Assembly: GCF_003573695.1 (NCBI RefSeq)
Contig: NC_039362.1
Span: 16,016,063 to 16,080,062, forward strand
From: Papaver somniferum
Lineage: Eukaryota > Streptophyta > Magnoliopsida > Ranunculales > Papaveraceae
DNA length: 64,000 nt
Reading direction: 5' to 3'
The notes beneath the pieces were generated by a model, which saw only the letters and a list, made by a program, of their open reading frames with translations, was not told where the DNA came from and did not search any database. Both the position numbers and the translations under genes were made by a program. Position 1 is the stretch's first letter. Every line of letters begins with the position of its first letter. Of the stretch, positions 4,032-56,274 are shown piece after piece.

Positions 4032-4191
4032 GATTGAATAAAGGGTATGGGAATGTATGGAAAGTAAAAGAATTGAAGGAAGAAAAAATTACAGCAGCAG
4101 ACTTTGCAGAAGAATGACAGAGTTGCAGAGATGAGAGAATAAAAATAAAAGAGAAAGTAAAAAGAAAAGTGGAAAGAGGGAGGGAGAAGAG

Positions 4192-4199
4192 TATATAAA
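4192..4199 (-). promoter_or_regulatory. Possible TATA box of the antisense gene
   Basis: TTTATATA on the minus strand, about 165 bp upstream of the ATG at 4031. It lies in a purine-rich leader. Position is right for a core promoter, but the word is common in AT-rich DNA. Confidence 0.35.
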
Positions 4200-4294
4200 G
4201 AAAATTTACTTCTCGAAGAAATAAACACCATTAAGACAAAGAGACGTGAGCGGTTGAAAAGTAGCGGTTACAGAAGACGTGTAAAGAAATAAAT

Positions 4295-4309
4295 GGAAGA
4301 GAGAGAGAG
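4295..4309 (+). other. Polypurine tract (PPT) of element G
   Basis: A GGAAGAGAGAGAGAG tract lies five bases before the probable LTR start TGTGATAA. This is where plus-strand DNA synthesis would prime in an element read on +. Confidence 0.5.
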
Positions 4310-4313
4310 TACG

Positions 4314-4863
4314 TGTGATAAATGTGAGGATATGAAAAGATAAGAAGTTGCGACATTTCTCACATCATTCTATACTTTGCAGAGGAGATATGAGAAGAGG
4401 CAAGATGTAGGATCAGATTCTCGCAACAATTATGTCTCAGCGAAATTATCAATGGTATTGCACAATAACGTCGCAGAACAGTTTCAGAAACAACGTCATC
4501 AAGGATCATGAGAAAGATGTGATAGTCTTGCGAAGATTAGAGAGCTTGCGAAGATAACATTTGTAAGGTTGCGAGAATGTCACAAACCATATCCGAGAAT
4601 AAAGGGCAGATTAGCTGTCATCCACTATGTATTTCCTTATAAATTAGTCATTCGAGTTGTAAAGGAGAGAGAGATCTTTTTTGAGTAAGAGACAAGTAAA
4701 TAGGAGAGAGAAAGTTCAGAACAGAGATCATTCTTGATTTCTTTATTCTCCTTGTAAGAACATTCAGAATTTAATCAATAAAATTAAGAGTGTAAACCTA
4801 AGAATGAGTTGATCAATAATGAAATTATATGAGGGGTGTATTGTAGGATTTCCTGCAACTACA
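4314..4863 (+). repeat. 3' LTR of element G (about 550 bp)
   Basis: It begins TGTGATAAATG and ends CAACTACA. It contains TATAAATTA at 4638 and AATAAA at 4777-4782, in the order expected of U3-R-U5 on +. The partner LTR is outside the window, so the exact ends are inferred from TG/CA, the PPT on the left and recognisable Copia LTR sequence on the right. Confidence 0.6.
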
Positions 4864-5033
4864 GGTATGTCAAGGTTGGTTATCATATTTTAGTATCCAA
4901 ACGCATAAGTCGTTTGATTAGACTACTAGAGTCAACTTCATTAGGTTAGACTAGGAAGTATATAAATGTTGAGACATACAAGTATTACTCTGAAGACCTG
5001 GAGATTCCGAAGTCGTGTCGACATTAACGATGA
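4864..5033 (+). repeat. Fragment of a Copia LTR
   Basis: It is homologous, in inverted orientation, to about 31130-31300 inside the Copia LTR at 28636-31336. It starts about 37 bases into that LTR type and breaks off where the next Copia LTR begins. The insertions of element G on the left and the Copia element on the right isolated it. Confidence 0.65.
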
Positions 5034-18384: not shown

Positions 18385-18690
18385 ACGTTGAAGCGGCTTC
18401 TGGATCGGAATGTTGAAGCGGCTTTTGGATCGAAATGTTGAAGCGGCTCCTGGAGAGAGCGGATCCTAAAGAGATAGTTGAATCGGCTTCTGGAACGACG
18501 TTGAAGCGGCTTCTGGAGTGAGCGTTGAAGCGGCTCCTGGAGAGGGGCTTGAAGCGACTTCTGGAAAGGGCGTTGAAGCGGCTTCTGGAGAGAGCGTTGA
18601 AGCGACTCTTGGAGAGGACGTTGAAGCGGATTCTGGAGAGCATTGAAGCGGATCATGGAGCGAGCGTTGAAGCGGCTCCTGGAGAGAACA
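18385..18690 (-). repeat. 24-bp minisatellite, about 12 copies
   Basis: Unit on +: GTTGAAGCGGCTTCTGGAGA plus 4 bases, 23-25 bp long with one longer copy near 18433-18476. Because the unit is a multiple of 3, several frames stay open and read as 8-residue repeats (LQRPLQES-like on -, LKRLLERA on +). It lies just downstream of the protease remnant. Confidence 0.9.
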
Positions 18691-18710
18691 TTGCAAATCG
18701 TGTCTTCTCC

Positions 18711-32370: not shown

Positions 32371-32999
32371 TGTTGATGGTGGTTTTAAGTTCAGGGATAA
32401 AATTGTAAAACCCTGCATTTAATAGGTCATCACTTTGTAAAGAGACAGAGCCATGTAAAAGTGATGAGTGTTTAAACCTCTCCACTGGCACACTTATTGA
32501 GCAACTCAATATTCTCTCATGAAATTTACCCAGAATGGTGCATGTATCAACAATCCCAGGTATTCTGTAAATTTTGGCACCTTGCCTACATTCAATTAAT
32601 ATAAGTTTCTTTGAATGCTTTTTGTGCTATGTTCCCCGGCTCAACCCTTAATGTTGATACGGCATAACGATTTGTGTTCACTCGCAACAGAGTAACACGA
32701 ATTTCCAAGTATCAATGATGAGGTCTTTACATAAGGTATTCAATCAGAAAGCATGCTGCTCTCTGGCAATGAACTTAAAAGAACTTTGTGTCAACACATA
32801 GAATTCAATCGATTATCCTGACTAATTTGCATAAGTTAGGGTTTTGCGCCTTGCGCAGTATAGCAGACCTTGCTTGCCGAAATTAAGCCTAGGAAAATTA
32901 GGTAATTAATCCTCCATGGATTAATAGATGCAAAATCTTACCCAGAATCAGAAAACAAGGAGCCGCAGGATAAGAGCAGCAACAAAGGGAGGTGTGGCC

Positions 33000-33260
33000 A
33001 TCCCTTAAGCCAAGCCGACGCCATTTTCTATGTGCCACGCCCCGTCCTAAACCGGCCCTATTTCCCTCGACCAATCAGGTCGCTCTAAAATCGCCACACG
33101 CACATAAGTTGTGGTTGGGACCATACCAGCCGACCCCATTTCCCATCGACCAATCAGGTCGCTCTAAAGCCGCCACACTCACACCAGAAGTGTAGCCGCA
33201 CCCATGCTTGGCCGACCCTCTTTTCTGACCAATCAGGTTGTTCTAAACTTGGCACAGTAT
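33000..33260 (+). repeat. CCAAT-containing palindromic modules in the LTR of element F
   Basis: Three to four copies of an 80-100 bp module. Two carry the perfect palindrome CGACC-AATCA-GGTCG followed by GCTCTAAA and GCCACAC; a third is TGACCAATCAGGTTG. Confidence 0.75.
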
Positions 33261-33289
33261 TAAAAAGGGGAAACTGCGCCACATAGTCA

Positions 33290-34060
33290 CGAAGCCAATT
33301 GGCTTTCCAAAACCGCGCCAACATGCCAAACATGCCATGTTGCCCCAATGAGATAAGCGGCATGCCAACATGCCACTTTGCGGCAGCATGCCAAAACATG
33401 CCACGAGCCGCGTGGGACCCAGAAAACCCTAGAAATGGCGCCATATCATAGCCACCCACGACAATCCTTACTCTTGTGGCCGTTTCCACGCCATGGCCTT
33501 GCTATAGTTCCCTTGGCATAAATATGGAACCATTTTCACAAAAAAGTGTTGCCATGCCGCGTCCGCATGCCTCACAAACTAATTAGGGTTTCGGCATGCC
33601 AAACCCTAATTTAGGAAAAATTGCTACGCCAACCCAGCCAAGTAACGTTCCCCAGAGCATTGGGATTGATGTGTCAGCAGGGCCAATGTTTCCAGGCCAC
33701 ATTTCGGGTCAAACACCAATGTGCAAAAATCTAGCGGCCATGGCTATGCCAGGCGCTAGTTGCATCATCGTTCCACTGGCATGCGTCAGCTATATCAGCC
33801 ACGCCATCATGCCGCAGCGTACATACTAATTAAGGTTTTGATACGCCAAGCCCTAGTTTAGCTAAAGTCGCCATTCCAACTAGATTATATTCTCCTAAGG
33901 ACTTAAGTTTAACTCAGCAACAGGGCCAATGTTGCCAGAGCCATATTTGGGTCTAACACCAATATGCCAAAACAGCTGCCACGGCTACGCCACTGGCATG
34001 CCGCTATGTCATGGATACGCCAGACGCCACTATGCCAATGGCGCCACTTTATTATATGAC
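33290..34060 (+). repeat. CATGCC/GGCATG-rich block in the LTR of element F
   Basis: A GC-rich stretch with dozens of CATGCC, GGCATG and GCCAC words, often paired (CATGCCAAACATGCCATG). The style continues at 49905-50030 on the other side of the inserted element. It contains open frames on both strands, none convincing. Confidence 0.65.
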
Positions 34061-35809
34061 AAGATATGGCCATAATCAATGGCCATCCTTCCTCATTGTA
34101 CATGGGGAAAAACGATTTGCTTGTTTTTAAGGAATTGAGGAGACGACTGTACGGAGGAGACTCCTCGAACCGAGCGAAATATTAAACCTCACACAGATGC
34201 ACCGCTGCAAAGGGGGTGCTTTAGATTCGAGAGATCAATCTGTAGTACTTTGGCCTAAATCAAGACAATGACCGTTCCAGAGTAAATTCTGTCACAAGAG
34301 AGGATGGGTTGATCTGTAGGACGGAAGCTGGGAAATGTGCGGAATCAATGATAATCAAAGATTATGGGTGTGTGAATTCTGAATATGATAAGCTCTGAAT
34401 GATTGAAATTACTCAATTGAGAGTAGTTGCTCAATTGATGAGTTGATGATCTCGTGTTGTCGATGAGACGTGAGATTGATGATACTGTTGATGACGATGA
34501 TTCAATCATGATTCAGAGACTTATTTATATTGGTGGAATTTTAGACACCATGACCCCATAAAGTGTGACAGTTGATGGAATCAAGGAGTGGGGAAGTGGA
34601 GATCGTGTTTGAAACCAGTTGCTCAACGTGTGGAGACTTGTTCGATTTTCCACCCACTACCTCGTGAATTCCTTCAACTGATTGCACGACTTGCTCACAT
34701 TCCATCGTGTGTTTGAACACACGTACCGTAGACCGCCATACCAAAATCCTAAGTGATATCCCCCCAAAGTGACACGATTGACGTCTCGTGGTATGTTAGT
34801 CAATTGATGACTTCGTGGGACGATGAGTCCATGTATTTGATAAGTTGAACATGAAATGTTCTGAGATTCATGACCTTAAACGTGTTTGTTGAGACAGAGG
34901 TACAATTCTCATGATGAGGTGAGAAAGTATTGCTCGTTCGATGAATTGTCGAATATTGGTTGTTGAACCAATATTCCTTGGTTTGAGAAAATATTTATAA
35001 TCTGAGCAAGTGTTGCTCATGTGATGAATTGTTGAATACTTGATCGTCTGAGCATGTGTTGCTTATCTGATGGATTATTGGCAGCGTACCAAAAATATTA
35101 ATTAGAATACTGGTCGTTGAACCCAGCATAATTAATAAAATTAATGACCATGAGGTCGTCGTAAAATTATTAAGGTTGGAATCTGGAATGATGATCCTTG
35201 GATTCAGAAACCCTAATTTGATCAATTGATGATCAATTCATGGTTCGTCAGAATTTTAACCATGGGACGAAGGAGGGAGCGACTACATGGGACCATGGAT
35301 CAACCATGTAGTGTCCATATGGTCACGTGAGAAAATACAAAGAACTCCTGAAGAGTTGACGATTTGTTGGTGAAAGAATGATTAAATGCTGGTTTAATCA
35401 TTTATTCGAAATGCTCGTCTCAGCCTTAGGTGAGAAAACCTAATTAATTATGACGGAGTGAGGGACCGACCATGGGGTCATGAAACCGGCCCTGGGTAGT
35501 CACGTGACCGCCTGATGATCACTTCATGACAATCCAAAGTGTTTGGAAGAGTCTTGGACCTAATACGTGCAATTGTGCAAATTAGGTCAAAACTGTGATA
35601 CTTGATGGGACCGGCTTCTGTAAGCCAAAGAGCCAATCTTGGTCGGTCAAGATACCGTGCTCGTGTCCCCAAGGCGTCTGCGTCTCAGTCCCGAGAATTT
35701 TGATATTTTCTGGCGTGCAATTGGGTATCCATTCGAGAAAATATGCCAAAATTAGGGTTTCGACGAAACCGAGGAAAACACCATGAGATGATGGAAAATA
35801 ATTATAAAA

Positions 35810-36610
35810 TAAGGAATAAGGAGGCGTGGGACCGCAGAGGCCAAGGCATGGTCGGTCGGTCGTGGCCACGGTCCCGTGGTGCCTTTTCCTTAATTTTATA
35901 ATATTTTGATGATTTTATGAAAAATTCATGAATTTTGAGAAATTTGATGAATTTAGGGAGTTTCCATGAATTAAAGGAGTTTTCATGAGTTCAGGGAAGC
36001 AAAAATTATTAAAATAATAAAAACAAGGGTGTGTGGGACCGTGGAGGCGCGGCCGGCCGGGTAGGGCCCGGTCCCACGAGTTTTCATAATTTTTAATATT
36101 TTTTTTTAGGAATTTTTCATGATTTGAGGGAATTTTTCCTTATTTGAGAGAAATATCATGAAATCAAGGAATTTGATGAATTCAAGGAAAATAAAAATAA
36201 TAATAAAACAAAGGGGCGTGTGGGACAGCCTAGGGCCAGAGCCCACAAGTTTTCATAATTTATTTTATTATTATTTGGTGATTTGTGCAAAATACCATGA
36301 AATCAAAAAGTTTTTTCATGAAATTAGAGAAATAATAATAATAATAAAATAATGAGGAACCGTGAGGTGTGGGGCCGGCTGGGACCAAGGCGCGGCCGGT
36401 TGGCCCATGGTCACGCCCCACACTCCTTTCATTAATTTTTTATTATTTTTTATGGATTTATGACAATACCATGAAACCGAGGAGTTTCCTCGAGACGAAG
36501 GAGATTTGATCAAATGAGAGAATTTTCATCAAATCATGGAAAATAATGTATTAAAAATATAAAACTGGCGTAGGACTGACCACGACACGGTCGGTTGGTC
36601 GTGTGTCCGT
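35810..36610 (-). repeat. Five GC-rich palindromic modules separated by AT-rich spacers
   Basis: Modules near 35825, 36030, 36210, 36355 and 36565 each pair a left GGGACC or GGGGCC block with a right GGTCCC or GGCCCA block around CGGCCGGCCGG-like cores. Spacers of about 100-150 bases rich in ATTTTCATGA and AATAATAA separate them. The same array is at 47945-48780. The related LTR at 57439-59858 lacks most of it, which explains its 1.15 kb shorter length. Confidence 0.75.
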
Positions 36611-36868
36611 GTTCCCGGCACCTTGGTTAATATTTTTAATTATTTATCATTTTCTTCCCTATTTTGCATAGGTTCATCGTTTCGTTGTATTTTGAAATAC
36701 TCGTTCGTGCGGTGACTGTTAGTGCATCTCGTTGAACACACTTTCACCATTTGGATCGGGGCTTACTTAGAGGTAGCTCAGACGCCCGGTTGTTGATTAT
36801 TTATTACTAATTGTGGAATTCAGTGGAGAATAATTCACAAAACTGAGTAATAAGATGTTTATTATTAA

Positions 36869-37204
36869 TTCATAGGATCAGCTGAGGATTCGACTACGAA
36901 TTCAGAATAATAAAGTGAGCATTACCATTCCATGGGATCGTAGATTCGACCATAGAATCAGAGTAATTAAGATTTATCTATTACCATTTATGAGACCAGT
37001 TGTGGATTCGATCATGAAATCGGAGTAATGAGATAATATAGTTATTTATTCTATGAGATCAAGCCGTGGATTCGATCATAGAATCAGAACAATTGTTTAT
37101 TGCCATTCCATGGGACCAGTCGTGGATTCGACCATGGAATAGGAGCAATTGTTATTGCCATTCCATGGGACCAGTCGTGGATTCGACCATGGAATAGGAG
37201 CAAT
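36869..37204 (-). repeat. Six-hairpin array with covarying stems
   Basis: Hairpins lie at 36869-36900, 36921-36967, 36980-37029, 37048-37084, 37099-37149 and 37154-37204. Each has an inner stem of 7-9 bp around a conserved loop of about 18 bases (GACCAGTCGTGGATTCGA on +), and most have an outer stem ATTRC/GYAAT separated by a short bulge. Inner stems differ but stay paired: ATTCTATGA/TCATAGAAT, ATTCCATGG/CCATGGAAT, ATTTATGA/TCATGAAAT. Outer stems change ATTGC/GCAAT to ATTAC/GTAAT. Confidence 0.85.
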
Positions 37205-37278
37205 AATAGATTATTCTGGGAATTCAGTAGTGAATGTCACGGCAGAATTAATCTTAATTAGGAATAATTAACTTTGTG

Positions 37279-37431
37279 GCTCTATACTAGCAGAGCAAGC
37301 TGTCTAGGAGCATTAATTATCCCGATATGAGCTTGTCGGTAAGTCATATCCTTTATATAGTCAGGGTAAACTCGTTGTTTGTTCCTGAAGACGTTATCGC
37401 TCTATACTAGCAGAGCAAGCTGTCTAGGAGC
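37279..37431 (-). repeat. Two copies of a bulged hairpin, GCTCTATACTAG...CTAGGAGC
   Basis: Copies at 37279-37311 and 37399-37431 are identical over 33 bases. CTAG and GCTC pair with CTAG and GAGC, with TATA bulged out. The motif recurs in the LTRs of element E (57673-57705, 57794-57826) and, diverged, of element C (16215-16246). Confidence 0.75.
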
Positions 37432-37661
37432 CGTCCATCTCGTGATACTATATAGAAATAATCACTGAAAGTGTTGTATTCATGAGATATGCCGTTGTCC
37501 AGTCGTGAGACTACATATCTACATGTACTCGAGAGAAAGTACTCTCCGTTGAGAATTCGATGAGAGACCCGTGTCTCAATACTCACGTCTGATTGCTGGA
37601 TCAGAGCTTCGTATAATTATGAGTTTACGATTTTACCCTTGTCGAAAATCCACCATCTACA

Positions 37662-37675
37662 TTAAGTCCCCTGCT
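37662..37675 (-). other. Polypurine tract of element B
   Basis: Minus-strand AGCAGGGGACTTAA directly before the 3' LTR start TGTAGATGG; identical to that of element C. A perfect 8-base inverted repeat CTGAGGAA/TTCCTCAG follows at 37678-37700. Confidence 0.85.
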
Positions 37676-37963
37676 TACTGAGGAAAGCTGTGTTCCTCAG
37701 TCAGCATTAAATGGTGATTTTCCGGCCATAAATAACAATACCAGTAATTGAATTAGTCGTAAGTTGAGACGTTACCGGATTTAGAGAGCATGAGCAACCA
37801 CGACTTGATGAAGGCTTCAATGTCATGATTGGAGTGTCGTTTGGTGAGCATAAATTGGTGTTGAACCGCTGGTTTGGACGACGAGTCCGTGGTTGGTCAG
37901 GATTCGCGGGACGGGCCCAATAAGGAAATCCTTGGAAAATTAGGTTTTGGAAATAAAAAATTG

Positions 37964-37972
37964 TATAAAAGG
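37964..37972 (+). promoter_or_regulatory. TATA box of antisense gene 1
   Basis: TATAAAAGG on +, about 300 bases inside the element from its 3' LTR and about 30-35 bases before the pyrimidine-rich leader at 38000. The placement is what a plant core promoter needs. Confidence 0.6.
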
Positions 37973-37999
37973 AATTAATTTTTTTTTTTAATTTTTCCA

Positions 38000-39621
38000 C
38001 GTCTCTCCATCACCTCTCCTCCTTCACGCCAGCAGAGAAGCTTGAAGTTCCGCCGCCACCTGATCGTCGCCGTCGCGCCAGTCGCGTTGCCGCCGGCCAA
38101 CTTCCGGCCGACCAGGTGCGTGCGTTTTTTTTTTTTTTTTTGATGTTTGCTGATGTTGTGACCTTCATGAGTTTTCATGTTTTGATCATGATGAAACCAT
38201 ATACATGTGTGTATATATTGGTATGAGTTTTATGAAAACCCTCGTTTTTGAAAACGTATGTTCGTTCGATCGTTAGTTTTGAAAACTAACTATAATCCCT
38301 GATTTAGGAGAGATTTTTTTTTAATATGAACTAGGTCCAGTGATAAAACTTAGTGTATGAGCTTTCATGTGTACCAGGTTTTATCATAAAAGGAGTAAAT
38401 TTTCACGAAATCGAAATAATCCTTCGTTTTAAAGCAAATTACGACGACTCGAAGGAAATCATATGATGAACTTGTGTCCAGTGATAAAATTTTCTTATGA
38501 GCTTTCATGTAAAAAACTTTATCATATGTATGAGATGTGAGCTTTCACAGTTTTGAAATAAACCTTCGTTTTAAAGACAAATAACGACGATACGAAGGAA
38601 AAATAGTTTTTTTTTATATATGCAGCCGTGACATATATTGTGCAAAATATGATGATATATTTATTTTCATGATTTGTTTTCATTAATAAAATCCTTGAGA
38701 TTTATGTATGCAAGTTGCATTAATTGCTTTTTTTCGAAAAATCAAAGCGTGTGTTTGAGGAACCTTCGAAGATAGACAATATATTTATGATGAAATATTT
38801 TATTGTTATAAACTTCATAGGTCAGTTGTGTGAATGTTCACATTATGAAAATTGTGTCCGTGATTTCATGAAAAATCAGTTTCGGAAATTAAATAAAGTT
38901 TCGTTCGTTTTTGCAGTTTTCGAAGAGACGAACGATTTTGAGGTGTTAACTCTTAGCATAACTACTACCATTAGTAGAATTGTAAAGAGGTAAGAGTTCA
39001 GAGTTACCTTTTTTGCTGATGTTGGTTTGTTTACATAGTAGTAATCTTTGATCTTCCGGTTCCAGAAAATGTCGACCAACAACAACAGCAATTACGATTA
39101 CTGGTATTCCTCTTCTTCCTCTGGCTCTTCTGATGAGGATTCCGATGCTCCTGTAGCGAAATCAAAGGCTAGGGTTCCCCATGAAGGGGCGAAGCCTAAT
39201 GTTCCCTTGGGTGAGCGAAGAGTCTCTTTTGCTGAACTCAAGAAAAGAGGAGCTGAAGACAAAAAGGAGGATGCCCGTCAACGTGAGAAAGATCGCACCC
39301 GGCGTAAGAGACAGAGGGTTGAGGAGAAGCGTCGATTCTTGGATGGAGTGCCTTCTGATTCTGATGATGCTTCTGAAGAAGAGATCACATGGGAACCATC
39401 CGAGCGTTACATTAAGCCTGATCGATATGAAAGAGAGCATCAGAGGATGATGAAGAAAATTGAAGCTGCGAAGCTGAGCGAAGATGACTCGGATTCAGAT
39501 GATGATGATTATCTTCCGTCCACCGGACTTCACCAATGATTCTGACAGTGACTCTGAAGAAGATGATTCCGAGAAGGATAGTGACGATGAATCTGACAAT
39601 TCGGATGAGTCCGACGAGTAG
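38000..39621 (+). pseudogene. Antisense gene 1 of element B: acidic, Ser/Asp-rich charged protein
   Basis: I infer two leader introns: donor after 38115 (ACCAG|GTGCGT), acceptor at 38916, short exon 38917-38989 (AGAG|GTAAGA), acceptor at 39065. Coding starts at ATG 39069. The protein begins MSTNNNSNYDYWY, then a Ser/Asp run, a long basic and glutamate-rich helix (about residues 60-130) and an acidic tail. A one-base frameshift near 39520 separates the first stop (39537-39539) from the acidic frame that ends with TAG 39619-39621. It may be a nuclear or chaperone-like charged protein; I recognise no domain. Transcription opposes the element's own. Confidence 0.55.
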
Positions 39622-40011
39622 TTTTACTTCCATCTTCTTTAACGTTAGAGCATTCCCTTTTAGTCTTCATAGTGGATATCTTTCTTTTGACTGTTTAAAT
39701 GACTTTACTTCAATTAGACTTTTCTTCTGAATGATGAACATTTTGTTAACGTCGATTTCTTCTAATCCATGACATGGACCAATGTCCATATCCAAATTCA
39801 TCATGACTTGTCGATTTTCATGAGAAGTAACATAACACACGGCTGAGAATTCATGACGTGTACAAGGCCGCGTGGCCTATCCTTTGACCCGTGATGTTCA
39901 GTCCCCAGTGCGTTATTTTCCTCCGCGTCTTCAGTATCGATCTTTGAAGCCTAGGGTTTCAGTGAAACTCGTAACTGAGTTGACTATTCGCGAGTGATGA
40001 CTATCGCCTGA

Positions 40012-40020
40012 TATATATAT
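40012..40020 (+). promoter_or_regulatory. Possible TATA box of antisense gene 2
   Basis: A TATATATAT run about 100 bases before ATG 40118, between the end of antisense gene 1 and the start of gene 2. Confidence 0.4.
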
Positions 40021-40117
40021 CTTCAAGACTCCAAATCTATGATCCACGCAAATATTTCTTCCATTCCTGAGTCAGTTTCATCGTGCAGAGAAGTTTTGAT
40101 CCTACCTCCTTGCCGTC

Positions 40118-41079
40118 ATGTCGAGCAATAGCATTTCTTCTCAAGATGATCTTCAGTCGAAGCGTGAAATAGCAACGTCTATCTCAGTAAGTTGTACACT
40201 TCTTCTTCTCCTTTCTTGTCTCTGTTCGATCGAGATTGTTGATCACAAGAGAATGATTTGTCGTAGGACTGTAAGAAGAATGCTACTCCTCATAATGCAA
40301 GGCCTAAGCGGACTGTTAGAGCTCCTGCCCGGTATGGATCGGCTCGTGCTGAAGCTGGATCGTCTGTAAGTAAACCTATGACTCTTGAGATTGTACTGAG
40401 TCCCGGGATTAACACTCCTTCGTTTCATCATAGGCGGATGTCCGTGTCGTCGTCGATGCTAGACGAAGAAAGAGTGGAAAGTCCGTGACCGTGGTTGAGG
40501 TTGAGGAAAGCAGCAACCAGGCATGTGAAGATTCTGCAGGATCCGTGGAGACTGGAGACAGTGTCCATGTTCGTGAATACCCAACCGCTGGACTCTTATT
40601 CGAAGCTCCATTGATTAATACCTTCCCAGACAATGAAGTGGTCGGTGGATTCGTGATTCCCAAATGTCATGCGCCTCTGTACACCAATATTTGGAAGAGG
40701 TATGGTCACATTGCTACCACAGAAGTGTGGAAAGGTTTTCTTCCAACTCTTTTAACCACGGTAGCGGGGCTATTGCCGATCATCGAGGAAATTAACCAGA
40801 TGCATTTTCAAGACGTCAAAAACCATGAACTGCACAAATGGGATGAAATGATCTCGAATTGTGAGATATTGCGATTCGATGTAAGCTGGCTCCGTCATTG
40901 TCTTGAGATAATCAAGGTTCATAAGGCGGCAGAGGCTGGATGATGAGAGGATACTGGCTCTGGAGTCAGCAAGGGTTGAGAAAGCGGTCGAAGACTTGAA
41001 GGCAAAGACCAAGATTTTTCAGAAGAAGCTTGATGAGGCATCTTACAGGGATCATCCGTTGCTGGATGGTTTGCTCTGA
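40118..41079 (+). pseudogene. Antisense gene 2 of element B: PEARLI-4-like C-terminal domain with coiled coil
   Basis: Three exons with good splice sites: 40118-40186 (CA|GTAAGT), 40267-40365 (TCT|GTAAGT) and 40434-41079. Exon junctions keep frame. The first 90 residues are basic. Exon 3 has CHAPLYTNIWKRYGHIATTEVWK, a helical stretch, FDVSWLRHCLEIIK and, after a one-base frameshift near 40920, a coiled coil ending DGLL. The pattern of APLY..I...YG.IA.T and F.VSWL recalls the plant PEARLI-4 (phospholipase-like, PF05278) family. That is a match from memory and tentative. The gene ends 196 bases from the end of pol, tail to tail. Confidence 0.55.
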
Positions 41080-41274
41080 GTGAGCATTTGTGGTTGTTGT
41101 TTTTTGAATAAATCTGAGTTTCTAGTTAGGTGAAACAGTTGATCATGGTATGAACGAATTTTGCTCATTTATGAAATGTTTAATGAACAAAGGAGCATTC
41201 ACATGCTCTTTGGAGGAATAAAATTATATTTTTGAAAATTCTTGAAATGATGAAGAGGTAGTTTGTTTCGTGGA

Positions 41275-44200
41275 TCAGGCATAATAAGCTTTGAGCCATT
41301 TGCCATTGATGATGTTTCCTTCCTTTCCTCCATTGATTGCTAAAATTTTGTAGTATCCGCTAGACACTGCTTTGATAACAACATACGGCCCTTCCCATTT
41401 AGGAGAGAACTTAGGAGCAGACATGTCTTGTTGAATGTGCTTTGCCGTCTTTAATACCAAATCTCCTACTTGAAATGTTCGAGGTCTTACCATTTTGTTG
41501 TAGGCTCTGGAGATCCTCTGTTTGTAAGCTTCCACATATTTTTCCACCTTGGTTCTCCTTGATTCAAGCATATCTAGCTCAGCGATTCTTGATCTGGAGA
41601 TTTCAGCCTCATCCCATTGTACACCACTGGATGCTGCAATCCTGGCTGAGGGAACTTTGATTTCTGCTGGAAGTATGGCGTCGGCTCCATAGACAAGGGA
41701 ATATGGCGAAGTACCGATCGAGCTCCTTGGTGCAGTTCTGTAAGCCCATAGAGCCATGGGTAATTGCTCATGCCATGATCGAGGATTGTCATGAATCGTC
41801 CGACTGATAATCCTGATCAAAGTCTTGTTGGTACTTTCTGCTTGACCATTTCCTTGTGGATAGTAAGGCGTGGAGAAGATTTGTTTGATCCCATATTTAT
41901 TGAGCAGCTTCTCAACATCTTGATTGGCAAAAGGAGTTCCGTTATCTGTGATGATGCTTAGGAACTCCGAATCTGCATATTATGTGCTCTTTGATGAAGG
42001 CGGCAATCGTAACTCCAGTGGTGCTTCGAAGAGGAATAGCTTCGACCCACTTGGTGAAGTACTCTGTCGCAGTGATGATGTATTCATGTTGTTTTGAAGA
42101 TGCTGGATTGATCTTCCCAATGATATCTAGTCCCCAGCTGTAGAAAGGCCAGACTATTCACAGAATTCAACGGGAGACAAGGAGTGTGGATGAGATTACC
42201 ATGGGTTTGGCATTGGTGACACCTCTGAACGTGTGCGGCTGCATCATCTTCCATGGTTGGCCAATAATATTTCTCATGAATTTGAAGAAATAGTTTCCTC
42301 TTTCCTTGATGTTCTCCATCATGTACTTCCTTCAGGATTGTAGGGATTTCATGTTCGGCTAAGCACCTCAGTAAATTCCACCAAATTTTGCGGTATAAGA
42401 TCCCATCGAGATAGACGAATCTCTTAGCTTTCTGAATGAGTTTGACTGCTTGCTTCTTTTCCAGTGGTAGTTCGTTATCCCGGAGGTATTTGATGTAAGG
42501 CTCCTTCCAGTCCCCAGTGTGGTGGACTGTCAAAACCTCCAGGTGATGAGGAGGTGTTTGGAAATCAGGACAAGATCCTTGTAAAGCTCTTGACTGAGTT
42601 TCCATGGATGGCCAGTAGTATCCCATTCTTTGAAGCTTTCTGTAAAGTGTTACCACTAACGTTTGCCCGCAGATTTCTTCATGTATGCGCTTGAGTTGTT
42701 CTTCCGCTTCGTTGCTCCCAAGACATCGTGATAGAGATCCATCAGGGTTTCGATAGTATAGTCCTCCATGGAGCAAGAAGTAGTTCTTCAATTCTTTGAG
42801 GCTGACTTGGCCTTCTGAAACAGAGCTGCTCAATTCATGAATGATGGGTGCTCGCCAATCGTTTGCTGGAATGTCTTCTATCTGAGTGAGCCAAGTTGAA
42901 GATACGGTACGCCTCTGTACAGTGATCGTTTTCTCTGCTCCTTCAAATTGCATCTTGGAGGCGAGAGTTGCTAGGCAATCAGCATGCCTATTGTTAGTCC
43001 GTCCAGTATGGACGATCGTTGCGTCAGCAAAATAGGTCAACAGTCGCTGAGCTTCGGTTCTGAATGGAGCAAGTGTGATTTCCTTGAGAGAATACGTTCC
43101 ATTCATCTGGTTGACCAATAATTTTGAATCCCCCTTATCTCAAGGTGTGTTGCTCCTGCTTGCTTGGCCAAGGATAATCCTAATAGGAAGGCTTCATATT
43201 TTGCTGAGTTGTTGGTGCAGTGGAAATCTAACTTGAACGAATGTGAGAAAACTTCACCAGATGGAGACACCAGTACTATGCCCGCTCCTCCGGTGTCACT
43301 ACTAGGGGTGGCAGATCCATCAAAGTATAGAAGCCATGTTTCTTCCTTGATGACCAAGATGTCTGGGAATTCGCCGGGCACTTCTTCATGTAGTGTTGTT
43401 GTGTCTTCCCCTGGAAAAGCAGCGAGCAAGTCTGCGACCGCTTGACCTTTGATGGCTTTAGGTGGCGTGCAAGCTATGTCAAATTCTGACATCTGGAGTA
43501 GCCACTTCGCTGGTCTCCCTATCAAGGATGGCTTTGATATCAAGAACTTTATGGGATCAGCTTTGGAGATGAGTACGACCCTGTTAGATAGTAAGTAACG
43601 TCTGAACTTCTGAATTGCATGTACCAATGACAGGCATGCCCTTTCGGCCTTTGGATATCGGAGTTGAGCATCTCTTATTGTGCGGCTGAAGTAGTAAATC
43701 GGTCGTTCGACGCCTTCATCGTCTTCCTGAGCGAGGAGTGCGCCGATGGCGACGTCACTGGAGGCTGTGTAAAGAATCAGAGGTCGTCCCTGCACTGGAG
43801 ACCTCATGACGGCCGGTGACTGAATAATATCTGTTGTATTTTATGGAAAGCTTCTTGTTGAACAGCTGTCCAGGTGAAGCTTGCTCCTTTCTTCAGCAGA
43901 GGTGTGAACGAAGCAATGAGTTGAGCTAATCCAGGAATGAAGCGTCGAATATAATTTACCTTGCCCATAAAGCTCTGTAGTTCCTTCACGGTACGTGGAG
44001 GAGGCATGGTGGTAATAGCTTTTGCCTTGTCTGGGTCGACTTTGATCCCTTCAGCCGTGACCAGGAATCCTAAGAATTTTCCGGAAGAAACTCCGAATGC
44101 GCACTTTAAAGGATTCATTTTAATTTGTATTCTCTGCATCTTTCAAACACCTGCCTTAGAACTTCGAGATGAGATGCTCGAGTCTTCGATTTTACCACCA

Positions 44201-45080
44201 CATCATCAACATAGTCTTCTACTTGCTTGTGCATCATGTCGTGGAATATGGCAGTCATGGCTCGTTGATAGGTGGCACCAGCATTCTTTAATCCAAAGGG
44301 CATCACAGTGTAGTGAAAATTCCCAATGGGAGTACGGAACGCAGTCTTGTTGGCGTCATGTTCATACATCTTGATCTGGTTGTACCCACTATAGCCGTCC
44401 ATGAATGAGAACATACCGTGACCACTGGTTGCATCGACGAGCATGTCAATGTTGGGTAGAGGAAAATCATCCTTTGGACAACATTTATTCAAGTTCCTGA
44501 AGTCGACACAACATCTGATTTGACCATTTTTCTTCTTAACAGGTACCACATTTGCTAGCCACGTTGGATGAAGAATAGGCTTGATGAACCCTGCTGCCAA
44601 CAGTTTCTGGATTTCGACCTTGATTTGATCCTCGACTTCGTGTCTAAATTGTCTGGGCGGTTGTTTGACAGCTTTGGAACCAGGGACGATGTGCAGGTGA
44701 TAGGTGACGAGTTTGTCATCCAGACCCGACATTTCTTCGTACGTCCAGGCGAAGACATCTTGATATTCTTTCAATAATTTTATCAGCTTGGTCCGCTCCT
44801 CTGGTGATAGTGCTGAACTGATCAGGATTGGCCTTGGATCGTCTTCAGTCCCAATGTTGATTATTTCAAGATCGTCAATGGTAGAGTCAGTGTCGTCCTG
44901 TAGTTGTCGTGGGGCATCCTGGACTTCTTCTTCAAGTGATAGCTCACTCTGACACGATTCTTCATGGTGGGGAGACTTTTCGTCGTTCTCCCCGATTAAT
45001 TGCCAATCTTTCCATCGGCGATAAATGACTCTCCTTTCTACGTCTCGATCGGTCGTGAAGTTTGACCCTGGAGTTGAGAC
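41275..45080 (-). pseudogene. pol: Tat pol: reverse transcriptase, RNase H, second (archaeal-type) RNase H, integrase
   Basis: Pol copies the RNA into DNA and integrates it. RT (44774-44115) has PLPNIDMLVDA, MPFGLKNAGATYQR and the active site YVDD at 44213-44202. The first RNase H has YTASSDVAIGALLAQ. A second RNase H (from about 43335) has YFDGSA, NNSAKYEAF and LEIRG. Integrase has two H/C modules (ending RCHQCQTHGN) and D-D-E codons at 42127, 41946 and 41838. The last two are 35 residues apart, the exact DD35E spacing. The C-terminal module WEGPYVV is near 41385. Frame changes fall near 44120, 43830, 43140, 42165 and 41957, so no single product is possible. Pol is in the same frame as ORF1 upstream. 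Confidence 0.93.
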
Positions 45081-46175
45081 TTAATAACTATGGTGCTTAG
45101 TCAGTGTAGTAGGTGACTTGATCATTTTAGCAGCTGAGGATGACGGATCGTTATCAGCCTTCTCGATAGTCTTCCATCTTGGAAGTGGAGTACTGCGAAT
45201 CCTGCTTGGAGGTTCCGGGACGCCTTTTTGAGATTCAAGGAACTCAGTATCATAGACGGGAGCATAAGGAGATGATGAAGTCGGAATGCGAACGATCTTG
45301 TTGTCGAGCAGAGCCTTCATGCATTGATGGTATGTTGAAGGAACCACCTTGTTATCATGGAGCCATGGGCGTCCCAGTATTATGTGGTAGTCAGGTTCTT
45401 GCTCGATCACATGAAACTTTGCTTTCGATCGAATCGGACCAACCCTCAAATCTATGTATGCATATCCATATGTATGGCTTTGACTTCCTTCAAATCCTGT
45501 CATTAGGATGGGATAGCGAACGATTTTACCTTGTAGGAATCTGGTCATCCTGAGAGTCTTCATAGTGACAATGTTGGTGGAAGCACCGGTGTCGACAAGA
45601 GCTATTCTAAATTCGGTGCCTTTGATGAAACCAGTGACATACAATGCTCGGTTGTGTCCTTCATCCGTCATGCGATCTTCTTCTCCAAAAGAGATGTTAT
45701 CGATCGAATGCCCAGGCATTAGGGAGACTTCTTCAACTGATGGTGTTGGTGGCGTTATTTGCACGTTGGATGATATCTGGTTGAGTGCTGAAAATGTGTT
45801 TGTGCGCTGATCCCTGGAGAAGTGTAGGAGTTCACATAGATTTTCAATCAAATGTGTGACCTCTTGTTCCACCGGATTCTCGTATGTGGTGAAGCTGTTG
45901 ATTTGAGGGTCAGATGACGCTTCAGTCCCCGGTGTTGAGGCTTCTGGAGTGGAGATACCGCCTAACTCGGATGTTAATCTGATGAGAAATTCGAGGATAT
46001 GGTTTATCGTCTCCTTCATCAGGTCCATGTTCCTGGTATGGACCTCTAGGATTTGAGCCAACTCTGCCAAAGTCGGGATCCCTCTGCCTTCCATGCCGCC
46101 AGGTGTAACATGAGGAATGTTTCCGTTTGAAATATTCTGATCTGAATTAGTTGAATTAGTCCTAAGACCAACCAT
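45081..46175 (-). CDS. ORF1 of element B: Gag N-terminus fused to retropepsin, no capsid
   Basis: A 364-codon open frame from ATG 46175, about 55 bases after the primer site. Residues 30-75 form a helix with EVHTRNMDLMKETI, as in the Gag N-terminus of related Tat elements. Residues 110-145 (LIENLCELLHFSRDQ) correspond to the segment before protease. The protease has an intact LVDTGASTNIVTMKTL at about 191 and ILGRPWLHDN at about 267. The Retrotrans_gag capsid domain and Cys/His region that element E has are absent, and the frame runs through without a break. It ends at TAA 45083-45081, after which the same frame continues into pol. It would need Gag from another element to be packaged. Confidence 0.85.
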   Translation of the reverse strand: MVGLRTNSTNSDQNISNGNIPHVTPGGMEGRGIPTLAELAQILEVHTRNMDLMKETINHILEFLIRLTSELGGISTPEASTPGTEASSDPQINSFTTYENPVEQEVTHLIENLCELLHFSRDQRTNTFSALNQISSNVQITPPTPSVEEVSLMPGHSIDNISFGEEDRMTDEGHNRALYVTGFIKGTEFRIALVDTGASTNIVTMKTLRMTRFLQGKIVRYPILMTGFEGSQSHTYGYAYIDLRVGPIRSKAKFHVIEQEPDYHIILGRPWLHDNKVVPSTYHQCMKALLDNKIVRIPTSSSPYAPVYDTEFLESQKGVPEPPSRIRSTPLPRWKTIEKADNDPSSSAAKMIKSPTTLTKHHSY

Positions 46176-46209
46176 CTTGTGAGATTGTTAGATTACAACC
46201 GAGAGATTA

Positions 46210-46230
46210 ATATCCCATTGTGGTCGCCAA
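46210..46230 (-). other. Primer binding site, tRNA-Arg type
   Basis: Minus-strand TGGCGACCACAATGGGATA, two bases after the 5' LTR end (TCTACA). Confidence 0.75.
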
Positions 46231-46232
46231 TC

Positions 46233-49200
46233 TGTAGATGGGGAAAAACGATTTGCTGGTTTTTAAGGAATTAAGGAGACGACCGTACGGAGGAGACTCC
46301 TCGAACCGAGAGAAATGTTAAACGTCACACAAATGCACCGCTCCAAAGTCGGTGCTTTAGATTCGAGAGATCAATCTGTAGTACTCCGGCCTAAATCAAG
46401 ACAATGACCGTTCCAGAGTAAATTCAGTCACAAGAGAGGATGGGTTGATCTGTAGGAGGGAAGCTGGGAAATGTGTGGAATCAATGGTAATCAAAGATTG
46501 TGGGTGTGTAAATTCTGAATATGATAAGCTCTGAATGATTGAAATTACTCAATTGAGAGTAGTTGCTCAATTGATGAGTTGATGATCTCGTGTTGTCTAT
46601 GAGACGTGAGATTGATGATACTGTTGATGCCGATGATTCAATCATGATTCAGAGACTTATTTATATTGCTGGAATTTTAGACACCATGACCCCATGAAGT
46701 GTGAAAGTTGATGGAATCAAGGAGTGGGGAAGTGGAGATCGTGTTTGAAACCAGTTGCTCAACGTGTGGAGACTTGGTCGATTTTCCACCCACTACCTCG
46801 TGAATTCCTTCAACTGATTGCACGACTTGCTCACATTCCATCGTGTATTTGAACACACGTGTCGTAGACCGCCAGACCAAAACCCTAAGTGATATCCCCC
46901 CAAAGTGACACGATTGACGTCTCGTGGTATGTTAGTCAATTGATGACTTCGTGGGACGATGAGTCCATGTATTTGATGAGTTGAACATGAAATGTTCTGA
47001 GATTCATGACCTTAAACGTGTCTATTGAGACAGAGGTATAATTCTCATCATGATGTGAGCAAGTATTGCTCGTTCGATGAATTGCCGAATATTGGTTGTT
47101 GAACCAATATTCCTTGGTTTGAGCAAATATTTATCATCTGAGCAAGTGTTTCTCATGTGATGAATTGTTGAATATTTGATCGTCTGAGCATGTGTTGCTC
47201 ATCTGATGGATTATTGGCAGCGTACCAAAAATATTAATTAGAATACTGGTCGTTGAACCGAGCATAATTAATAAAATTAATGACCATGAGGTCGTCGTAA
47301 AATTATTAAGGTTGGAATCTGGAATGATGATCCTTGGATTCAGAAACCCTAATTTGATCAATTGATAATCAATTCATGGTTCGTCAGAATTTTAACCACG
47401 GGACGAAGGAGGGAGCGACTACACGGGACCGTGGATCAACCATGTAGTGTTCATATGCTCACGTGAGCAAATACAAAGATCTCTTGAAGAGTTGACGATT
47501 TGTTGGTGAAAGAATGATTAAATGTTGGTTTAATCATTTATTCAAAAATGCTCGTCTGAGCCTTAGGTGAGAAAAACTAATTAATTATGACGGAGTGAGG
47601 GACCGACCATGGGGTCATGAAATCGGCCCTGGGTAGTCACGTGACCGCCTGATGATCACTTCATGAAAATCCAAAGTGTTTGGAAGAGTCTTGGACCTAA
47701 TACGTGCAATTGTGCAAATTAGGTCAAAACTGTGAAACTTGATGGGACCGGCTTCTGTAAGCCAAAGAGACAATCTTGGTCGGTCAAGATAGCGTCCCCA
47801 AGGCGTCCGCGTCTCAGTCCTGAGAATTTTGATATTTTCTGGCGTGCAATGGGGCATCCATTCGACAAAATGTGCCAAAATTAGGGTTTCGACGAATCTG
47901 AGGAAAACACCATGAGATAATGGAAAATAATTATAAAATAAGGAATAAGGAGGTGTGGGACCGCCGAGGCCAAGGCATGGTCGGTCGGTCATGGCCACGG
48001 TTCCGTGGTGCCTTTTCCTTAATTTTATAATATTTTGATGATTTTATGAAAAATTCATGAAATTTGAGAAATTTGATGAATTTAGGGAGTTTCTATGAAT
48101 TGAAGGAGTTTTCATGAGTTCAGGGAAGCAAAAAATATTAAAATAATAAAAACAAGGGTGTGTGGGACCGTGGAGGCACGGCCGGCTGGCTAGGGCCCGG
48201 TCCCACGAGTTTTCATAATTTTTAATATTTTTTTTTAGGTATTTTTTTCATGATTTGAGAGAATTTTTCCTAATTTGAGAGAAATACCATGAAATCAAGG
48301 AATTTGATGAATTCAAGGAAAATAAAAATAATAATAAAACAAAGGGGCGTGTGGGACCGGCTAGGGCATGGCCGGCCGGCTAGGGCTTGGTCCCACAAGT
48401 TTTCATAATTTATTTTATTTTATTATTATTTGGTGATTTGTGCAAAATACCATGAAATCAAAGAGTTTTTTCATGAAATTAGCGAAATAATAATAATAAT
48501 AATAAAATAATGAGGAACCGTGAGGTGTGGGGCCGGCTGGGACCAAGGAGTGGCCGGTTGGCCCATGGTCAGGCCCCACACTCCTTTCCTTAATTTTATA
48601 TTATTTTTTATGGATTTATGACAATACCATGAAACCGAGGAGTTTCCTCGAGACGAAGGAGATTTGATCAAATGAGAGAATTTTCATCAAATCATGGAAA
48701 ATAATGTATTAAAAATATAAACTGGCGTATGACTGACCAAGACACGTTCGGTTGGTCGTGTGTCCGTGTTCCCAACACCTTGGTTAATATTTTTAATTAT
48801 TTGTCAATTTCTTCCCTATTTTGCATAGGTTCATCGTTTCGTTGTATTTTGAAATACTCGTTCGTGCGGTGACTATTAGTGCATCATCGTTGAACACACT
48901 TTCACCATTTGGATCGGGGCTTACTTAGAGGTAGCTTAGACGCCCGGTTGTTGATTATTTATTACTAATTGTGGAATTCAGTGGAGAATAATTCACAAAA
49001 CTGAGTAATAAGATGTTTATTATTAATTCATAGGATCAGCTGAGGATTCGACTACGAATTCAGCATAATAAAGTGAGTATTACCATTCCATGGGATCGTA
49101 GATTCGACCATAGAATCGGAGTAATTAAGATTTATCTATTACCATTTATGAGACCAGTTGTGGATTCGATCATGAAATCGGAGTAATGAGATAATATAGT

Positions 49201-49819
49201 TATTGCTATTCTATGAGATCAAGCCCTGGATTCGATCATAGAATCAGAACAATTGTTTATTTCCATTCCATGGGACCAGTCGTGGATTCGACCATGGAAT
49301 AGGAGCAATTGTTATTGCCATTCCATGGGACCAGTCGTGGATTCGACCATGAAATAGGAGCAATAATAGATTATTCTGGGAATTCAGTAGTGAATGTCAC
49401 GGCAGAATTAATCTTAATTAGGAATAATTAACTTTGTGGATCTATACTAGCAGACCAAGCTGTCTAGGAGCATTAATTATCCCGATATGAGCTTGTCGGT
49501 AAGTCATATACTTTATATAGTCAGGGTAAACTCGTTGTTTGTTCCTGAAGACGTTATCGCTCTATACTAGCAGAGCAAGCTGTCTAGGAGCCGTCCATCT
49601 CGTGATACTATATAGAAATAATCACTGATCAGTGATCATGAGATATGACGTTGTCCAGTCGTGAGACTACATATCTACATGTACTCCGAGAGAAAGTAGT
49701 CTCCGTTGAGAATTCAATAAGAGACCCGTGTCTCAATACTCATGTGTGATTGCTGGATCAGAGCTTCGTATAATTATGAGTTTACGATTTTATCCCTTGT
49801 CGAAAATCCACCATCTACA
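46233..49819 (-). repeat. 5' LTR of element B
   Basis: Partner of 34097-37661. It starts TGTAGATGGGG on + and ends CCACCATCTACA. Minus-strand TATAAATAA is at 46665-46657. The GC-rich module array is at 47945-48780 and the hairpin array at about 49035-49370. Confidence 0.95.
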
Positions 49820-49824
49820 CTCAT

Positions 49825-50895
49825 GAGATGCAATCTCATCCATCCAAATTCACCACCGAACTGACAGACTTGTGGCAAGTTTTAAGCGACCAACCGCTTA
49901 AATCTCGTGGCCATGGCTACGCTTGGCACCACTTATACCACCGTGCCACTGGCATGCATGAGCTATACCAGTCATGCCGCAGTGCCACTGGCATACACCA
50001 AAACGCCATTGTGCCATTACCAGGCGCCAACAGAAGGTAACTATAATCAACGGCTACCCTTCCTCATGAGATGCAACCTCAGCCATCCAATTTTGCCACC
50101 AAACTGACAGACTTGTGGAAAGTTTTAGGAGACCAACCAAGACTTGCCTGATAGCATCACATGCTATTTTCCTTCGGAAAGACTCTTGACTTTGACTTGA
50201 CGCACGTAGCATAGTGCTACATGTTTTCCACAAAAACACTCGAGACATCAAACATGTCACAAACTGGGGGATACTCATCAGGTTATTGGTCTGGCGGTTT
50301 ACAGGGTGCGGCGTGCAATACGCCCGTTATAAGAAAGTGTCATGAAGTGGGATAATTAGTGGAGGCAAGAAATAACGGGTGTAAACGGATCCACTTCCTT
50401 CATCATGGAAGCATGGGTTTCTGACGGTTATACGTTACTCCACTCTTCCATCACCCAATCGTTCCCACTTTCTACGAGACAAGGGTACGTTTCAATATGA
50501 CTTGTATAAATAGACTTCACCTATTTCCACCAAAGAACATGTTTTTTGGTCGGCAACAACATAGTATCCAGAAATCACCAAGAACTGATAGCTTTTCACT
50601 CTGCAAGCTAGTTCCACTTTCTGATACAAGTCATAAAACAAGTCACATCTTCAGAATTAACCATTCTGGTCTCAACACTCTCTTCGCTTCCCTCCCTAAG
50701 ACCAACCGTTCTCCTTCACTTTGTGACCAAAGCAAGCCTGGAACGGCCATTTCTTGGTTTAGGCCAGGATTGTACAGATTGATCTCTCGAATCAAAAGTA
50801 CTCCCGTGCAGTGCATTGTTTAGGGTTTAGATTCGTTTCTCATCCACACACCCAAATTTACCAAAACCAACAGAAATAGTTTTCACCCACAAACA
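49825..50895 (+). repeat. 5' LTR of Tat element F, right part
   Basis: It resumes the LTR at the second CTCAT. It carries the TATAAATAG promoter at 50505-50513 and ends CACAAACA before the primer site. Its last 500 bases match the reverse of 20142-20640 in element C. GAGATGCAA..TCA..CATCCAA and CTGACAGACTTGTGG occur twice (49825 and 50066). Confidence 0.88.
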
Positions 50896-54468: not shown

Positions 54469-56274
54469 CAATTTTAGTGACAAAACTATTAACACATATG
54501 GAAAACAAAAAAGATAAACTTTAGTGGCTCCTATTCCATAGTCTAATCTTCAACGTTCCTTGAAATCTTCGTCCTTCCAAGTACTCCAATGATCCCAAAG
54601 GTTGTAAGTTTAGCATCACCGTTGTTGAAGATTCGTAGCTATAACAATGAGAGAAATCGAGATTCTCGATCATCATTATACAGTGACATAGTTTTATTAT
54701 GTAACATCAAAGTCCAATTGCTCACGACTTTAACAATAATACTACGATGATATGTATCACTCCCCCTTGGTCAATACTCCATCTCACATGGAAACCACTC
54801 CCCCTTACACAATGATCCGAAAACCATATGTATATGTAGTAGAACTACACATTAATTCTCCCCCTTTTTGTCAATAAAATTGGCTAAGGTACAAGAACGG
54901 GATCCTAATGAAATTTCCGAGAACAGATGTTTCATAGACTAAAAGAAAAAAAAATACATACCAACTTAATTTAGATGCAATCATAAAGCCGAAGCTAAAT
55001 GCACTCATCAAGGAGTTTTAAGATACAAGATAACCCCTATAAAATTCCACAGCCGCACACCCCGCAAGATATTACCATTAAGCACAAGTTCAAAATAACT
55101 CTCCCCCATTTGATGTCATTCCCGAAAGAACAACAAGAGCGACCTTAATTTCGAAAGAAAAGAAGGATTTTTAATTGGACACCAAAAACCATAGGAATGA
55201 TTTTCTATATCCAAAACTCAATCAAACATGATTAATTAATTGGAATACGCAACTAAATCAAACCACAAAAGTGATCAGTTTAATTGATTGTACTCAACAT
55301 AAGTAAACTTACGGAACTACGACTAAGGTAATCATACGGAGATGACTAACTTAATCGTTCACATACTCAACATAAGGAAAAACTTACGGAATATACGACT
55401 ACATTAACCAATAGAACATGATTAGTATAGTCGTTCATATACTCAACACAAGGACTTTTGGAATATATGAATACTCAACTAGACTAATTACAAGAGAACC
55501 TATAATTAATCTAATTGGAAAACACAACCAAACTAATCACATAAGTAATCAATCTAATTGTCAATTGTTTTGCTCGACAATAGAAGACTTTCGGAGCAAA
55601 TAACTAAATAACCAACCAAGATGATTAATTTAGTTCAAAGATGCTCGACATAAAGTACCTTACGGAACAACCAAGAAAGTTAATCACAAAATAATCAACT
55701 TAGTTGTATCGTGCTCGATATAAGACACATTACGGAGCCTCACAGGAATACATAAGATATGGATCAGTGATGATCATTACTGTGGAATACATACAAGGAT
55801 CTATTCTATTTTTCCATCACTTATTTGCATAACGACATAATAGTTTATCCTTGTCACATAAAATATTTTACCCTATTTTCCGTCAAATAAATGACTGCAT
55901 AGGCATAACTTTTGTATTTGTCAAAAGTCCATTCGTACTTTCATCAATACGAATACCAATTTATGAACGACTTTACTTTTGACAACATATGGGACCTTCA
56001 AGTTCACGGACGCAAACAATACATATCCCATAAAATATTGCAATACTTCAAAATCAAACAGATTAATACTGCAATAACATCATCCTCCAAATATTTTTAC
56101 ATTTAAAACCAATAAACCTAAAAATAATACAAGAAGATGAAAACAAAAATAGTTATGTGTAGTCACAATCTTCGCTATTCAAAGAACTAGTTATTCTTCC
56201 AACTAATCCAAAAAGAAGACATACTAGGCATATAAACAAAAGCATTACTCATCATCTTCATCATCGGACAATTT
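54469..56274 (-). other. Long AT-rich region before the Copia 3' LTR, no gene recognised
   Basis: No convincing coding sequence. It contains the degenerate tandem array at 55195-55745. It would form the 3' untranslated part of the extra ORF's transcript. Confidence 0.5.
55195..55745 (-). repeat. Degenerate tandem array, period about 70-80 bp, six to seven copies
   Basis: The block CTCAACATAAG...CTTACGGAA...CGACTA recurs near 55306, 55383, 55455, 55588, 55655 and 55727, with ATGATTAACTTAGTTG-like spacers. Confidence 0.65.

Follow-up and report, generated by a model that had tools for sequence, protein, structure and literature searches.

Why do the long terminal repeats (LTRs) of a Papaver somniferum retrotransposon carry a row of small hairpins whose stems differ from one hairpin to the next and still pair? 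We addressed this question in a 64,000-nucleotide stretch of contig NC_039362.1 (hereafter the window; assembly GCF_003573695.1, positions 16,016,063 to 16,080,062), in which one element has such an array in both of its LTRs, A and B, and a related LTR copy, C, has it in the opposite orientation. The original prediction had described six tandem hairpins in LTR A, their recurrence in the partner LTR and a five-hairpin version in the third copy. We recovered all three arrays, moving the start of the first from 36869 to 36861 and that of the second to 49019. The array of covarying hairpins is real, and we give a probability of about 0.75 to the reading that it consists of repeated RNA stem-loops kept by selection on the sense RNA of the element. 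As pol lies on the minus strand, the sense strand of the element is minus; for LTR C it is plus.

Each unit is 46-52 nt long and reads, in sense, as an outer arm (ATTGC type), four linker bases, a nine-base inner arm, a loop starting with TCGAATC, the second inner arm, one base and the second outer arm. With 6 of the 17 units as input, a covariance model recovered all 17 (6 in A, 6 in B and 5 in C) at E <= 1e-8 in the window, and the next-best match (E = 0.14) was the opposite strand of a unit. The 18-nt loop gave 9 matches at up to three mismatches against 0.04 expected. It had been predicted to be nearly constant; this held for seven bases (TCGAATC in sense) that are common to all five unit types, and not for the remainder, which varies, with loop lengths of 14-19. 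Mean pairwise differences between unit types were 0.17 in loops, 0.27 in stems and 0.32 in linkers. At the end of each array stands a looser hairpin; in A its outer stem is ATTACT/AGTAAT and its inner stem TTGTG/CACAA. Two loose genome searches yielded 80 loci (the best 40 of 387 and the best 40 of 2194 candidate places), which together with LTR B gave 81 arrays and 447 units; units 3, 4, 5 and 6 were matched in all of these arrays, with two unit-1 copies in 42 and one in 39. The array model alignment used 20 of 38 loci. Units whose closing pair is swapped were sought in the genome with a pattern that had no matches, so that route produced no new unit types. Rfam returned no match at gathering score in the window, and the two matches below threshold in 36000-37800 (E 0.12 and 0.89) both lay off the array. 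No exact match of a 19-mer was found in viral contigs, and among the literature matches listed (titles and shown abstracts) there was no description of such an array in Tat LTRs.

The central claim of the prediction was that the stems change and stay paired. Among the five unit types, 7 of 14 pairs had changed on both sides and none of the 69 gap-free cells was unpaired; the claim fails for individual copies that are bulged (one base in unit 4), gapped (two outer-stem bases missing from unit 3 of A, one inner-stem base from unit 3 of C) or mismatched (one G.A in unit 2 of B). We compared these values with 20,000 neutral simulations that start from a perfect hairpin and assume random coalescent trees and independent sites, with a chosen rather than fitted transition share and divergence range (accepted stem divergence 0.22-0.33, observed 0.268) and one gap cell set aside. 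No simulation reached seven two-sided pairs (mean 0.82, maximum 6) and none reached zero broken cells (mean 21.8, minimum 4), so the covariation came out above neutral expectation. In an alignment of six units, gap cells again set aside, all 84 cells were paired; two-sided changes were found in 7 of 14 pairs against a shuffled mean of 3.8 (3 of 500 shuffles reached 7), and the covariation score was 0.548 against 0.296, with no shuffle of 500 as high. Shifting the partner in this alignment by 1-3 columns left 31-55% paired, and the true arm partners were the best of 120 permutations. Between unit types, represented by their commonest forms from 20 loci, the 42 gap-free comparisons with a changed pair were all canonical, including 31 with changes on both sides; another four, which involve a gap, were set aside.

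The genomic copies allowed us to set old changes against recent ones. Changes confined to a single locus, which we take as the pattern that arises after insertion without selection, kept pairing in only 13 of 43 stem cases (10 of 30 in the inner stem) and comprised 13 G.U, 12 A.C, 18 other and no Watson-Crick states, indels being excluded from the counts. They occurred at a similar rate in stems (43 in 12354 site-units) and loops (31 in 7722). By contrast, when the cells that depart from the commonest pair in comparisons between unit types were counted by hand, pairing was kept in all 13, with three G.U and no A.C (13/13 versus 13/43, Fisher p 5.5e-6). Inner-stem changes found in 2-4 loci also kept pairing in every case (5 G.U and 1 Watson-Crick of 6), and those common to at least two loci comprised 6 G.U, 1 A.C and 1 Watson-Crick of 8.

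These states also carry information on the strand. A G.U pair on one strand is an A.C mismatch on the other, and each of the three non-Watson-Crick states between unit types (unit 3 outer, units 5 and 6 inner) is a G.U in sense. At two pairs, the outer pair 5 (in units 1, 3 and 6) and the inner pair 5 (in units 1, 5 and 3), different units represent the steps C-G, U.G and U-A. Across the 15 listed units we counted 194 Watson-Crick, 10 G.U, no A.C, 1 other and 5 gap cells, many of which repeat a state that A, B and C have inherited in common. The presence of G.U without A.C between types, when single-locus changes yield both equally, favours selection on sense RNA over a cruciform or the copying of arms. 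The suggestion of selection on a folded RNA is thus borne out by the covariation, the G.U intermediates, the lack of A.C between types and the position of the array downstream of the TATA box. The cruciform and arm-copying alternatives named alongside it fit less well, the lasting mismatches being strand-specific (G.U in sense), but this concerns three events.

The position follows from the host element. The sequence 34097-49819 is an LTR retrotransposon with a 5-bp target duplication, CTCAT, and its LTRs are 95.2% identical over 3601 aligned columns. Pfam placed RVT_1, RT_RNaseH and Integrase_H2C2 above their cut-offs in gypsy order on the minus strand; a protease match (gag-asp_proteas, E 9.1e-6) was under its curated cut-off, and no integrase core domain was reported in the scan of the element's frames. 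RVT_3 (PF13456), which we take to stand for the additional RNase H (aRH), follows RT_RNaseH above its cut-off. The aRH is described as separating Tat from Athila (excerpt of PMC6317226), and we assign the element from its domains to the Tat-type Ty3/gypsy LTR retrotransposons. The region between pol and the 3' LTR is 3.6 kb long (41275 to 37661) and contains plus-strand (antisense) frames at 39048-39539 and 40485-40943, both under 600 bp. Available descriptions of Retand report a long region of this kind with antisense frames, 2.9-6.6 kb, with 97% of clusters having TRP28 (PF04195) as an antisense domain. Neither of our two antisense frames matched TRP28 or any other Pfam family at E 0.001, a scan that covered frames of this length and longer ones, so we do not claim the element as Retand.

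With pol on the minus strand, the array comes after the TATA box in sense, by about 155-500 nt, and this order holds in each of the three LTRs. The array thus appears to be in the presumed R region and 5' leader, where the extent of R is judged from the TATA position. AATAAA motifs fall within units 6 and 7 or at their ends (LTR positions 799/857 in A, 799/857 in B and 692/744 in C), and the LTRs contain others elsewhere, five, four and one in A, B and C, respectively.

Several observations weigh against selection on the sense RNA. The strand argument is built on three deep events and the deep covariation evidence on five unit types. The six-unit alignment used 6 of the 17 units and left out the bulged unit 4, and its further pair types were no more numerous than in shuffles, 432 of 500 having as many. 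Inner-stem changes in at least five loci comprised one G.U and one A.C. In the outer stem, 4 of 5 changes in 2-4 loci broke pairing (1 G.U, 4 other), as did 5 of 6 in at least five loci (3 other, 2 A.C, 1 Watson-Crick), and one such breaking variant in unit 3 was present in 35 units; these common outer changes were mostly in units 1 and 3, with one in unit 4. As shared outer changes break pairing whereas inner ones mostly keep it, recent constraint is indicated for the inner stem only. Shuffle-corrected folding, for which windows overlap and no p value is claimed, is stronger in sense over whole LTRs but less clearly so over the array. Over the array the sense excess was small in A and B (sense/antisense mean z -1.61/-1.34 and -1.35/-1.27), and over the second array described below there was none (-1.73/-1.77, -1.74/-1.88). 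It was clear over the array in C (-1.89/-0.42) and present over whole LTRs (A -1.40/-1.10, B -1.40/-1.01, C -1.35/-0.65), where it came mainly from LTR positions 1900-2700 (-2.10/-1.22, -2.07/-0.83) and, in C, 1000-1600 (-2.19/-1.12); at C 760-1000 it was reversed (-0.83/-1.21). Upstream of the TATA box folding was weaker in sense in A (-0.64/-1.29) and B (-0.80/-1.45) and equal in C (-1.47/-1.41). Folded singly, units 1, 3 and 5 favoured the sense strand, unit 4 favoured the antisense strand and unit 6 favoured neither, and the unshuffled fold of each whole LTR was lower in antisense. Finally, no such array was found in a related Tat family (family D), of which we folded the first 1.3 kb of the LTR of one copy, L091, and 1 kb of the copy in the window; given this lack in the folded part, the array looks like a family trait and not a Tat trait.

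Table 1. Coordinates of the hairpin arrays, LTRs and associated features in the window
Feature	Position	Strand	Remarks
Array A	36861-37204	-	six units, LTR A
Array A, units 6, 5, 4	36861-36911, 36921-36967, 36980-37029	-	
Array A, units 3, 2, 1	37044-37093, 37099-37149, 37154-37204	-	
Array B	49019-49364	-	six units, LTR B
Array C	57852-58132	+	five units, LTR C; one unit-1 copy fewer
Looser hairpin at array end	36801-36853 (-), 48959-49011 (-), 58137-58188 (+)		seventh in A and B, sixth in C
Second array	35795-36654; about 47924-48812 in B	-	large hairpins, A+T-rich stems, G+C-rich heads
TATA box	37351-37359 (-); also 49519 (-), 57746 (+)		TATATAAAG
Hairpin near presumed transcription start	37261-37323 (-), 49421-49483 (-), 57782-57844 (+)		stem GGGATAATTAAT/GTTAATTATTCC
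LTR A	34097-37661	-	3565 bases; TG...CA ends; 3' LTR in sense
LTR B	46233-49819	-	3587 bases; TG...CA ends; 5' LTR in sense
LTR C	57439-59858	+	related copy; sense is the plus strand
gag-pol region	41275-46175	-	separate frames: protease-like, reverse transcriptase, RNase H, RVT_3, integrase H2C2

The second array consists of four to five large hairpins in A and B, spaced 176-207 nt apart in B, with heads such as GTGGGACC...GGTCCCAC. About 1 kb is missing from LTR C, and in A and B that stretch holds most of this array. RNAalifold on four B units gave 11 pairs, one two-sided change and a covariation term of +0.88, so we claim no covariation there. Other features were seen in the LTRs and elsewhere in the window. 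A 32-nt hairpin motif (CTCTATACTAGCAGAGCAAGCTGTCTAGGAGC) flanks the TATA box of LTR A on both sides (37280-37311 and 37400-37431), and LTRs B and C each contain two copies of a 46-nt tandem repeat (47126-47216 and 58887-58977) with a TGAGCAAC...TTGCTCA-like hairpin. The region 55000-56000 has low minus-strand folding z (mean -2.50; 6 of 10 windows below -2.5), a 76-nt tandem repeat lies at 55291-55454, and a minus-strand frame at 56275-57081 matches Transposase_32 (PF20167; E 1.6e-9, under the curated cut-off). Repeats of about 24 nt that contain the near-palindrome GAAGCGGCTTC stand in tandem at 18387-18693, the longer run having about nine copies.

The LTR of family D (32371-34096 and 49820-50895) is interrupted by the element. 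A first look gave 10,333 candidates for this family, 40 of which were scored, and the L091 copy (3684-6463) begins like LTR C (81% over 42 bases). Loci L082-L094 each have one TCGAATC on the LTR strand, with one more on the other strand in L094, and GACCAATCAGG occurs in 1-3 copies in 13 of 14 family D loci, L081 having none. The family D LTR in the window contains small GACCAATCAGG hairpins and several GGCATGCC palindromes.

How might selection on the sense RNA have produced this arrangement? From the similarity of the units, one hairpin of about 51 nt, with a 5-bp outer stem, an internal loop, a 9-bp inner stem and a loop starting with UCGAAUC, would have been multiplied in tandem. The counts above show that the copies diverged while keeping sense-strand pairing and seven loop bases between unit types. 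If transcription starts about 30 nt past the TATA box at 37359, the array would sit close to the 5' end of every genomic RNA; it would recur close to the 3' end if the AATAAA motifs at the array end (799 and 857 in A) serve as polyadenylation signals. That the RNA-level array also has some function in the leader comes, in our estimate, a little short of an even chance. We favour a repeated stem-loop in the leader that a protein would recognise, and among single roles for it we tentatively predict Gag-driven packaging as the likeliest. The least certain step is that the repeated loops may form a multivalent protein-binding platform, most likely for the element's own Gag, serving genome selection and packaging. 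Pairing of the loops elsewhere found no counterpart, with none of six complementary 8-9-mers on the element's sense strand. Spelled out in full, and offered with low confidence, the scenario is that one protein-binding hairpin was multiplied at both genome ends, that Gag, or another protein coded by the element or the host, marks the RNA for packaging by binding the equal loops, that the stems drift by compensatory steps while the recognised UCGAAUC is held, and that the second array is another such device.

An array at both RNA ends may instead aid minus-strand transfer or control the use of the poly(A) signal. Retroviral R regions contain hairpins with such roles, and the AATAAA at the array end in all three LTRs fits; the LTRs also have AATAAA elsewhere and the extent of R here is itself presumed, and we rank a role of this kind, in place of Gag binding, next after it, as unlikely but worth keeping in view.

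Two-sided changes could also arise in one step, by template switching during reverse transcription or replication that copies one arm to the other and leaves perfect stems without any selection on RNA, a mechanism described for RNA genes (excerpt of PMC8794818). Such copying predicts Watson-Crick arms, with leftovers resembling the single-locus spectrum, whereas the three leftovers between types are all G.U and two pairs pass through U.G intermediates. None of the 43 single-locus stem changes gives a Watson-Crick pair, so recent arm copying is not seen, and copying alone leaves the common UCGAAUC unexplained; we therefore consider it improbable.

Slightly more improbable, in our view, is that the palindromes act in DNA, as protein-binding sites or cruciforms in transcription. 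This has been suggested for Sireviruses, whose LTRs contain repeated palindromic motifs ahead of the TATA box (excerpt of PMC2829016). Dyad symmetry is strand-neutral, which suits the small sense folding advantage over the array in A and B; against it stand the position downstream of the TATA box, the G.U without A.C between types and the predominance of G.U among shared inner-stem changes. Sequence variation under preserved pairing is not what a DNA-binding site requires, and arms of 9 bp closed by loops of 14-19 nt make poor cruciforms.

Dimerisation of the RNA by kissing loops has still poorer prospects: UCGA is common to all five loop types and the unit 6 loop palindrome UCAGCUGA forms a self-duplex of -13.1 kcal/mol (2% of shuffles as low), but the other 14 of 15 loop pairs have ordinary duplex energies (20-79% of shuffles as low). 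Chance inverted repeats without function in an A+T-rich tandem repeat are very improbable given the neutral simulations, the shuffles and the contrast of old and recent changes, even though the window is rich in perfect inverted repeats (108 rows, several to a repeat).

LTR retrotransposons make up a large share of many plant genomes, and to our knowledge little is known of their cis-acting RNA signals. A single LTR with an array of paralogous, covarying hairpins is a ready object for tests of leader-RNA function, and the many genomic copies give a neutral baseline for measuring selection on RNA pairing, as used here.

Retroviral and Ty1 5' leaders also have hairpins near the 5' end of the genomic RNA, in R and U5, as is presumed for this element; those are single hairpins of different kinds, whereas here one hairpin is multiplied. 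In long retroviral R regions, residual conservation has been linked to stem-loops, and the excerpt of PMC3601003 that reports this mentions no paralogous hairpin array, unlike what we see here. Sirevirus LTRs share with ours the clustering of palindromes in plant LTRs; their motifs are described as mostly CGG-CCG cores upstream of the TATA box (excerpt of PMC2829016), in contrast to an array that lies downstream and has covarying stems and a partly fixed loop. The element resembles Tat-clade (Retand-like) elements in its pol order, its extra RNase H-like domain, its 5-bp target duplication and its 3.6-kb region between pol and the 3' LTR with antisense frames, and it differs from them in having hairpins, placed inside the LTR.
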